The notes below the pieces were generated by a model that saw only the letters and a program-made list of their open reading frames with translations, did no database searches and had not been told where the DNA came from. From an archaeon (GTDB lineage: Archaea > Methanobacteriota_B > Thermococci > Methanofastidiosales > NM3): a stretch of DNA of 64,000 bases. The stretch spans positions 124,001 through 188,000 of the forward strand of contig RXIG01000001.1 of assembly GCA_004212155.1 (NCBI GenBank), in the 5' to 3' direction. Made by a program: the position numbers and the translations under genes. Within the stretch, counting starts at the first letter, position 1. Every line of letters begins with the position of its first letter. Shown here one piece after another: positions 27,016 to 30,327 of this stretch.

Positions 27016-27636
27016 ATGCTTAAGATCATCATAGCCGAAGCAGAGCTTGAACCAATGCCCCGCTCGCTTCGCAGCCTTCCAGTCATGAAGAAGAAATATG
27101 GACGAAAGGATGTGGTCCTGCTTGATAGCAACTACCATCATACCTCGATGCAGACACTCCCCGATGCATATCGAAGAGGGAGGCCGGACATCGTGCACGT
27201 CTGCCTGCTCAATGCCCTTGAGTCTCCGCTCAACAAGGACGGAGGGCTGGAGGTATACGTCCATACCCGCAATGACAAGGTCATATACATCGACCCGTCG
27301 TGGAAGGTCCCCAAATCATACAATAGATTCGTGGGATTGATGGAACAGCTCTTTTCAACCCGCCGCATCACAGCAGGTGATACCGAACTGCTCCGTATGG
27401 TGAACAAGACGTTGCCAGACCTCATCACCGAGGTATCCAGCGGCATGCCTGTCAAGGTGATGCACTACGAGGGCGCCCCGTATGAGCCGGACCCTGACGA
27501 GGTCCTCGTCATCGGAGGATTCCCTCATGGCGATTTTGTCAGCGACCTCCCCTTTTCGCGTTTTTCGATCCATGGCGAAGAGCTTGTGGCATGGGCAGTG
27601 CTCAACCATGTCGTATACGGCGCGCACGGTACATAG
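27016..27636 (+). CDS. nep1: rRNA pseudouridine N1-methyltransferase Nep1
   Basis: 206 aa SPOUT enzyme that methylates a pseudouridine in 16S rRNA and helps 30S assembly. Seen: LLDSNYHHTSM, RRGRPDIVHVCLLNALESPLN, LEVYVHTRNDKVIYIDP and the SAM-knot region VIGGFPHGDF. The TATA box sits 25 nt upstream, so it is probably leaderless. Confidence 0.96.
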   Translation: MLKIIIAEAELEPMPRSLRSLPVMKKKYGRKDVVLLDSNYHHTSMQTLPDAYRRGRPDIVHVCLLNALESPLNKDGGLEVYVHTRNDKVIYIDPSWKVPKSYNRFVGLMEQLFSTRRITAGDTELLRMVNKTLPDLITEVSSGMPVKVMHYEGAPYEPDPDEVLVIGGFPHGDFVSDLPFSRFSIHGEELVAWAVLNHVVYGAHGT

Positions 27637-27668
27637 GTTTAAATATTTCTCACATACTCTCATACGAT

Positions 27669-28304
27669 ATGAAGTGGAAGCGCCGAAGGCGCCAAAGACA
27701 AAAGATCGCTTCCAGGCACATATCCCGCCTCTTCGACCTTGCAATGGCATACGTGCATGAGAACCCGGCACGCGCCCGCCGCTATATCGAGATGGCGCGT
27801 TCCATCTCCCGCAAGCACAAGGTATCGTTTTCCAAGGAACAGAAACGGTCATATTGCGCGGCATGCAATCTCCCTCTCGTTACCGGTTCCACGGCACGGG
27901 TCAGGATCGGGCATGGCAGGGTGAGCATCACGTGCCTTTCGTGCGGACACGTTAAACGGTATCCCTACCGCAAGGAACGGCGCCTGGCGCGCACGCGCCG
28001 CCGTGGTTATGCAGAAACCAAGGTCAAGGGAGGGCTCGTCTGCGTTGATGTCACACTCGAGGGCCGTGCCATCAAAGACATACAGATAAGCGGTGATTTT
28101 TTCTTCTATCCGGAGGAGAAGCTCTCCTTGCTCGAAGATCGCATGCGCCATGTCCAGACGTTCAAGGTACGAGATGCCGTGCACGCATTCTTCGAGCAGG
28201 AGGGCGTGAAGGCGCCGGGCATGACGCCTGACGAACTTGCCGGCGCCATCATGCGCGCCTCAGGCAGGGCAATGCCCCTTAAAAGTTGGCCTTCACCGTC
28301 TTGA
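27669..28304 (+). CDS. rnp4: RNase P subunit Rnp4 fused to a lipoate-ligase C-terminal-type domain
   Basis: 211 aa in one frame. Residues about 1-110 are Rnp4/Rpp21: a basic helix RRRQRQKIASRHI, helical hairpin, and a zinc ribbon with CAAC and CLSC. Residues about 118-205 read as the Lip_prot_lig_C domain: KGGLVCVDVTLEGRAIKDI, ISGDFFFYPEE, and MTPDELAGAIM. In lipoate ligases this domain is needed to activate lipoate. No catalytic LplA domain is present. The fusion is unexpected. TATA box TTTAAATATTT (27638-27648) is about 25 nt upstream, which supports this start over longer frames. The 3' end overlaps mcm by 26 nt. Confidence 0.85.
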   Translation: MKWKRRRRQRQKIASRHISRLFDLAMAYVHENPARARRYIEMARSISRKHKVSFSKEQKRSYCAACNLPLVTGSTARVRIGHGRVSITCLSCGHVKRYPYRKERRLARTRRRGYAETKVKGGLVCVDVTLEGRAIKDIQISGDFFFYPEEKLSLLEDRMRHVQTFKVRDAVHAFFEQEGVKAPGMTPDELAGAIMRASGRAMPLKSWPSPS

Positions 28305-30327
28305 GGACACCAGCACGCGGTTCGAAGATGTCCCCGCCCCGCTTTAGTTCCTCGATGGCACGGACGATGAACTCCTTTCCGATGCCTGCCTCCTTTGCCG
28401 CCTTGACCACTTCCTCATACGGTGCTCCCTCGTCATAGTCCTGTTCGATCTTTTCGATAAGCTCATAGACCTGTATAATCTTTTGGCGCTGCGAGGTGGC
28501 CTTTCCAGTCATAAGGATATCAACGTCCATAGAGCCCGTTTCCTTGTCCATCATGATCTTTTCTATGACGCTTCGGTATAAGCTGATCGTGGCGTCAGCA
28601 TCTTCGGGCGTGACAACATTGGAGAGCCGCATGCGCGCTCTGGCCTCCGAAAGGCGGATCAATGCCTCGAGCTGTCGCGCCGTGATGGGGACCGCGCCAC
28701 CCTCTGCCCCCTGTTTGCGTATCGAGACGTAGAACTTGTGCAGTTTTTCCACTGTCTCCTTCATGAGCTCGGGATACACATTCCTCTTGGCATACGATAT
28801 GTACTTGACAAGGAACTCCGGCTCGAGGATGGGAGATATGTTTTCCTCGACACCGCTGTGGCTGTCGAGGATGTGTCGCGCGATGCGCGAGTCCTCCGCA
28901 TCGTTTGGCACGTCCTTGAGCACGAAGATGAGGTCGAATCGCGAGAGCAGAGAATGGGGAAGGTCGATCTGTTCGAGTTCGTTCTTATAGTTGTCGAATC
29001 TTCCAAGCTTCGGATTCGCAGCGGCAAGGATCGACGCCCTTGCATTAAGCGTCGCCACGATGCCCGCCTTGGCGATGCTGATCGTTTGCTGCTCCATCGC
29101 CTCGTGCACCGACGAACGGTCATCGGTGGTCATCTTGTCGATCTCATCGATACAGGCTATGCCCCCGTCGGCGAGCACGAGGGCACCTGCCTCTAGCGCC
29201 CAGCCGCCCGTTGTTTCATCCTTGACGACAGCCGCGGTAAGGCCGGCGCTTGACGTGCCCTTTCCTGAGGTGTAGACGCTACGCGGGGCGAGACGGGCGA
29301 CATATTGGAGGATCTGTGACTTGGCAACACCAGGATCACCGACGAGCAGCATATTGGAATCACCTCGCAATCTCGTGCCGTCGGGGAGCTCGCGCATCAC
29401 ACCTGCAAAGAGTTGGAGTGCTATTGCCTCCTTGACGTCGCTGAGGCCGTAGATAGAGGGGGATATGGACCCAACGACCTTCTGAACGATGTTCTCGTCC
29501 TGGGACAGCTCCCATATCCGCGCCTCGTCCTCATCGGTGATGAGCGTGTCGTCGACGTCCTTTTCGAGCACCTCGATGCAGTTCACCTCGATGTATTTGG
29601 AAAACGTTGTCTTCTTGACCTTGAACTGACTGTCCTGAACGGTCTTGAGGATGCCCGTGACGGTCACGCGTGAGCCTGCCTGGGCCATATCTACGATATC
29701 GTCGCGCAGCAGGCAGTTGATGTGCTGGGGCATGCGCCCTCCCTTGAGGGTCTCGGGACGCTCCTGCACCTTGATCAGCTGCCAGTCGATGAATCGCGAC
29801 TGATCTTCCAAAAGCTTGAAGGGACCTGACTTGCCGCATGCCGGATTGGGACATGCAGGGGGTTTCTTGAAGTTCGTCGAGTCCTGGCGTATGAAGATGA
29901 TCTCACCGCACCGTTCACATTCAAAGACCGCCTCTATGATCTCGGGCTTCACCTCGGAGGCCCGTCCTACGATGGCGATGATCTGTATGAGCTTGTGCAT
30001 ATCCTCCGTTCGTATCTGCCTGATCCCCTTATCGCGCGTGGCATCAAGATTGTGAAACCGTACATGAAGCGACTGGTCGGGAAACTCTGGCAAGGCCTCC
30101 TGGAGAACCTGTTCCGCGATGGGGATGACCTCAAGCGGCTTGTCGACCAGTTCGGTATAGATGTCCTGGTCATACGTTATGAGGTCGTCACAGTCGACGA
30201 CGAGGCTATGCGTGTCGTTCGCCCTCATATCCTCTATCTTCTTCTTGTACTTGGGAAACGATACGTCGGGATAAGTTTCGAAAAAATCCCTGAATCCGCT
30301 GATGATGGAATCGAAATCTACTGCCAT
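28279..30327 (-). CDS. mcm: Replicative helicase MCM
   Basis: 682 aa. The N-terminal DNA-binding part has a zinc finger (CERCG and CPNPACG near residues 135-165). The AAA+ core has Walker A GDPGVAKSQIL, Walker B CIDEIDKM, sensor 1 AAANP and arginine finger SRFDLIF. A C-terminal winged helix ends the chain. It unwinds DNA as a hexamer with GINS and Cdc45/RecJ. It overlaps the GINS gene by 10 nt. Confidence 0.98.
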   Translation of the reverse strand: MAVDFDSIISGFRDFFETYPDVSFPKYKKKIEDMRANDTHSLVVDCDDLITYDQDIYTELVDKPLEVIPIAEQVLQEALPEFPDQSLHVRFHNLDATRDKGIRQIRTEDMHKLIQIIAIVGRASEVKPEIIEAVFECERCGEIIFIRQDSTNFKKPPACPNPACGKSGPFKLLEDQSRFIDWQLIKVQERPETLKGGRMPQHINCLLRDDIVDMAQAGSRVTVTGILKTVQDSQFKVKKTTFSKYIEVNCIEVLEKDVDDTLITDEDEARIWELSQDENIVQKVVGSISPSIYGLSDVKEAIALQLFAGVMRELPDGTRLRGDSNMLLVGDPGVAKSQILQYVARLAPRSVYTSGKGTSSAGLTAAVVKDETTGGWALEAGALVLADGGIACIDEIDKMTTDDRSSVHEAMEQQTISIAKAGIVATLNARASILAAANPKLGRFDNYKNELEQIDLPHSLLSRFDLIFVLKDVPNDAEDSRIARHILDSHSGVEENISPILEPEFLVKYISYAKRNVYPELMKETVEKLHKFYVSIRKQGAEGGAVPITARQLEALIRLSEARARMRLSNVVTPEDADATISLYRSVIEKIMMDKETGSMDVDILMTGKATSQRQKIIQVYELIEKIEQDYDEGAPYEEVVKAAKEAGIGKEFIVRAIEELKRGGDIFEPRAGVLKTVKANF

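Follow-up and report, generated by a model that had tools for sequence, protein, structure and literature searches.

An in-frame fusion of the RNase P protein Rnp4 to the lipoate ligase subunit LplB in a family of Methanofastidiosales

The open reading frame at positions 27669–28304 (+ strand) of the window, the 64,000-nucleotide stretch of DNA analysed here, encodes a 211-residue protein without internal stops, and it is a genuine in-frame fusion of the RNase P protein Rnp4 (Rpp21) to the lipoate ligase subunit LplB. A sequence-only reading of this DNA had proposed an Rnp4 fused to a lipoate-ligase C-terminal-type domain, which is borne out by the profile matches to PF04032 and NF053749, by the predicted folds and by recurrence of the fusion within a clade; the C-terminal match is, more exactly, to the archaeal LplB subunit rather than to the C-terminal domain of bacterial LplA. 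The parts are known and the architecture, fixed in one archaeal family, is new; nothing relevant to an Rnp4–LplB fusion was found in the literature searched, a scope that leaves out most subscription journals. Two systems that are nearly universal and seem unrelated are united in one polypeptide throughout an archaeal family.

The Rnp4 half (aa 1–110; 27669–27998, +) comprises a helical N-terminal part and a zinc ribbon, and matches the Pfam Rpr2 family PF04032 at 6.2e-16 over aa 18–93 (58.9 bits; cut-off 29.3), the single confident PF04032 match in the window's genome. Its match to NCBIfam NF003045 (7.2e-27, aa 4–111) scores 93.9 against a strict equivalog cut-off of 162, and so lies below it. 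A short junction (aa 111–117; 27999–28019, +) leads into the LplB half (aa 118–197; 28020–28259, +), for which the profile scores are near the curated cut-offs. PF10437, the model suggested earlier as a check on the lipoate-ligase assignment, matches aa 116–164 at 6.2e-5 with 23.3 bits when the protein is searched (cut-off 24) and with 25.1 bits, enough to pass it, when the genome is searched, and it is also above the cut-off for the fusions of two relatives (G003 and G004; see below). Likewise NCBIfam NF053749 matches aa 116–197 at 2.4e-17, scoring 62.9 against 65 as a protein; the search of the genome gives 65.0 bits, which passes, and the fusion of relative G002 reaches 67.5. The motif ISGDFFFYPEE, from which, together with its flanking pattern, the assignment of the second half had been drawn, is located at aa 140–150; in the LplB signature SGDFFFYPEE (aa 141–150; 28089–28118, +) the GDFF and P residues are invariant in fused and stand-alone LplB alike.

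Both folds are recovered by structure prediction. In a phmmer search against the PDB, the solved chain closest in sequence to the Rnp4 half is Pyrococcus horikoshii Rnp4 (1x0t; 2e-19, aa 4–108) and that closest to the LplB half is Thermoplasma acidophilum LplB (3r07_C; 7e-15, aa 117–193). The AlphaFold2 model of the fusion has a pLDDT of 89 and a pTM of 0.52, the latter leaving the relative placement of the two domains undefined, and Foldseek aligns it with 1x0t (TM 0.90, rmsd 1.0) and 3r07_C (TM 0.88, rmsd 0.9), each TM value being taken over its target.

The full-length fusion is found in all five genomes of one family of Methanofastidiosales, which are uncultured, methane-making archaea (here f1, with the window's genome as G000 and its relatives as G001–G004), spanning three genera, and in no other of the 61 related genomes searched. 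The carriers are draft metagenome assemblies and include SpSt-1146, CSMAG_1224 and Candidatus Methanofastidiosia archaeon Zod_Metabat.1406; the four other fusions are 94, 49, 50 and 44% identical to the window's protein. Separate genes in relatives, with a frame error joining them here, had been named as one outcome that would overturn the fusion and the lack of a significant PF10437 match as the other; neither applies, and recurrence in five genomes indicates that neither a frame nor an assembly error is responsible. In whole-genome searches for second copies, the fusion is the sole detected LplB match in each of the five genomes, and the sole Rnp4 match as well if a fragment in G003 is counted as overlap. 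That fragment was rejected as a paralogue: contig C134 ends within it, its sequence is almost that of the complete gene on C189, and it is for these reasons taken to lie on an overlapping or strain-variant contig. An in-frame stop reported in the G004 fusion proved to be the normal stop that ends the gene. LplB itself is present in 108 of 115 genomes of the phylum by profile search.

The locus is otherwise an ordinary one, with nep1 (EMG1; 27016–27636, +; PF03587 4e-55) as a syntenically conserved upstream neighbour. Converging from the other side (28279–30327, −) is mcm, recognised by inspection as the gene of the replicative helicase; it overlaps the 3′ end of the fusion by 26 bp, the overlap being 11 bp in G002 and in G004. 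Fusion and mcm are separated in G003 by a gene of 672 aa with FrhB (F420-hydrogenase beta) and nitrite/sulfite reductase domains (L047:868–2886), which is absent from the other four loci. Outside f1, rnp4 and lplB lie at different places wherever both are found, and in families f2 and f4 lplB directly adjoins lipS1 (L110, L113, L115). The lip cluster of f1 reads archaemetzincin–lipS1–lipS2–lplA, without lplB (L045, L106, L108; the G003 locus, L107, is cut at its end). In f1, lplB has left its usual lipS1/lipS2/lplA neighbourhood, whose genes were assigned with family models, and now sits at the 3′ end of rnp4, and because the nep1–rnp4 adjacency is common to the sister family f3, the position of rnp4 is the older and lplB the newcomer. 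An LplB tree bearing on whether the lplB of the fusion is native or acquired (5 rows, 4 changes) is short and weakly supported.

Other features of these loci can be recorded. In three genomes of f1 the archaemetzincin-family gene immediately precedes lipS1 (L045:4466–5095, L106:5005–5634, L108:8837–9469), overlapping it in G000, which makes the pairing a conserved one, and tandem paralogues of ∼370 aa follow lplA, two in G000 (L045:7665–9913) and three in G002 (L106:8123–11486). In f3, LplB is the exception in being joined to LplA, in a 375-aa frame (L118 in G009:C127, and G006:C14), so a single order holds LplB fusions to two different partners.

Conserved residues are largely kept in both halves. 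The zinc-ribbon cysteines of the Rnp4 half, C63, C66, C89 and C92 (27855–27944, +), are shared by all five fusions and the aligned stand-alone Rnp4 proteins, as are both conserved arginine positions, and the half retains the basic residues to which PMC4919917 refers. The five fused LplBs retain nearly every residue that is invariant in 18 stand-alone LplBs (K118, G122, I140, GDFF, P148, L155 and A197). Comparison of G000 with G001 gives dN/dS values of 0.08 for the Rnp4 half and 0.15 for the LplB half, rough figures based on few substitutions, and by this comparison both halves are under purifying selection. The ratio of LplB to Rnp4 divergence is 1.53 in the fusions, within the range of the unfused families (1.41 in f5, 1.81 in f2 and 1.91 in f4), so fusion has not visibly relaxed LplB. 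At aa 17 (27717–27719) all five fusions have His in place of R17 of the Rpp29 interface, the residue that in Pyrococcus Rpp21 forms a salt bridge with Rpp29 (PMC4919917).

The partners expected of each half are encoded elsewhere in the window's genome. RNase P RNA (RF00373) is on contig C22 and Rpp29 (PF01868) on C14, and LipS1 and LipS2 are present. The stand-alone catalytic LplA gene, which the earlier reading had suggested looking for, is also on C22, adjoining lipS1–lipS2 and lacking an LplB of its own, and its RRxTGGG and K-x-SGSAQ motifs are intact; LplA was not found in G001, which is 77% complete. Among possible acceptors, GcvH and GcvT of the glycine cleavage system occur in G002, G003 and G004, where GcvH with GcvT is likely to be the lipoyl acceptor. 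Neither was found in the window's genome (89.8% complete), though LipS1, LipS2, LplA and LplB are there; its biotin/lipoyl carriers number just two, lie beside carboxylase genes (G000:C20) and are biotin-type in appearance. A second LplA in G004 (L109, G004:C21) adjoins genes resembling E1-beta and E2 of a 2-oxoacid dehydrogenase, which is unusual for a methanogen relative.

We consider it probable that the product is one bifunctional polypeptide, which is a subunit of RNase P and also supplies the LplB of LplA–LplB, and that it arose when lplB joined rnp4 in the f1 ancestor. LplB is the accessory unit found where a catalytic domain of octanoyltransferase type has become an ATP-dependent ligase (PMC10332631). 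The Rnp4 half would pair with Rpp29 and RNase P RNA as a normal Rpp21/Rnp4 subunit, and the LplB half would bind the separately encoded catalytic LplA; LplA with LplB would activate octanoate or lipoate using ATP, and LipS1/LipS2 would then insert sulfur on a carrier protein (GcvH in the relatives). In evolutionary terms, lplB would have departed from the lip cluster and become an in-frame 3′ extension of rnp4, and the separate copies of both genes would have been lost after joining, so that both functions would now hang on the fusion. We infer in this account a single uncleaved chain, LplA binding, entry into RNase P and the biochemical roles of the halves. In M. jannaschii RNase P the C-terminal helix of Rpp21 rests against L7Ae and the P12 junction, distally in the particle (PMC6565675), a position with plausible room for an outward-projecting 80-residue domain, and by analogy it is plausible that the appended LplB could project outward from the enzyme. 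The main benefit of the fusion is probably constitutive co-expression, or else there is simple tolerance, since the Rpp21 C-terminus is peripheral; a regulatory purpose is without support. Of the roles first guessed for the second half, co-expression, or bifunctional use, is the best supported; recruitment for RNA binding alone is disfavoured, since the f1 genomes yielded no further lplB.

A stronger version of coupling is also conceivable, in which lipoate ligase would be tethered to RNase P through the fusion, or RNase P would be gated by LplA or lipoate status, and tRNA maturation and lipoate-dependent metabolism would be co-regulated. The suggestion that lipoate otherwise has no link to tRNA processing was wrong, as an RNase P/lipoic-acid link is reported from yeast mitochondria (PMC5014551) and in vertebrates the RPP14 mRNA is bicistronic, its other product being HTD2, a fatty-acid dehydratase of mitochondria (PMC4705651). 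Retention of the fusion, with both halves constrained, among f1 members that are only about 50% identical fits such coupling; however, no second, independent fusion was found, lplA itself is distant from rnp4, and the eukaryotic links concern other proteins and may be coincidence. They are analogies and not evidence of coupling in f1, and we regard functional coupling as doubtful, and equally so its particular form in which LplB on RNase P would be a dock for LplA, linking tRNA maturation to the lipoylation state. If true, such docking would add to the yeast and vertebrate cases a third RNase P/lipoate connection, independent of both.

Alternatively, the LplB half could have been repurposed as an RNase P extension contacting RNA or L7Ae, with LplA working without LplB as a LipM-like octanoyltransferase. 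Loss of LplB accompanied by a change of LplA to an octanoyltransferase is inferred to have taken place repeatedly (PMC10332631), and C-terminal residues of M. jannaschii Rpp21 contact L7Ae and RNA (PMC6565675). The near-complete retention of the stand-alone-invariant residues, at the same relative rate of divergence, together with the retention of LplA, LipS1 and LipS2, nonetheless makes repurposing unlikely.

Less likely again is that the reading frame yields two separate proteins by internal initiation or cleavage, the fusion being only genetic. The junction is basic and modelled with low confidence (pLDDT 57 over aa 101–110), as this would permit, but internal initiation is argued against by the start codons near the junction, which are either missing or unshared: from 25 codons before the junction to the first strands of LplB, G000, G001 and G004 lack one altogether, while G002 and G003 have no position for it in common, the junction itself being free of ATG, GTG and TTG in the window's genome. 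A TATA-like box (TTTAAATA; 27638–27645, +) lies 31 nt before the ATG, the same TTTAAATA precedes the fusion in the near-identical G001, and in each of the three remaining distinct relatives measured a similar box precedes the ATG by 31–33 nt, a spacing that suggests that the whole fusion gene is transcribed with little or no leader. Finally, although all of the sources are metagenome assemblies, an assembly or frame artefact is scarcely credible when the same junction appears in five genomes of three genera, in separate records and down to ∼44% full-length identity.

If both halves work, the cell has to keep RNase P and lipoate ligase in balance one to one, and RNase P must accommodate an 80-residue appendage near L7Ae. 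The fusion also makes the scattered reports of eukaryotic RNase P/lipoic-acid coupling testable in a simple reconstituted system. Compared with archaeal Rnp4/Rpp21/RPR2 proteins (P. horikoshii Ph1601p, 1x0t; M. jannaschii, 6k0a chain G), the fusion shares the full helical and zinc-ribbon domain, the four cysteines and the two conserved arginines (TM 0.90), but has the 80-residue LplB domain in place of a short basic tail, and His for R17. With archaeal LplB (T. acidophilum 3r07_C; T. kodakarensis Lpl-C) it has in common the whole domain, the K-x-x-G-G-L and GDFF-x-x-P motifs (TM 0.88) and a separate LplA gene, but the fused LplB is not a free subunit, lies outside the lip cluster and forms part of an RNase P protein. 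Lpl(AB) and Lpl(BA) ligases, of the E. coli LplA type or as in f3, also have an LplB domain fused to a larger protein; there the partner is the catalytic LplA domain, whereas in f1 it is a ribonucleoprotein subunit. Vertebrate RPP14/HTD2 likewise co-encodes an RNase P subunit and an enzyme that acts in mitochondrial fatty acid synthesis, the pathway that supplies the precursor of lipoate, but it does so as two separate open reading frames for other proteins in a eukaryote, and the resemblance is one of analogy only, with no homology.
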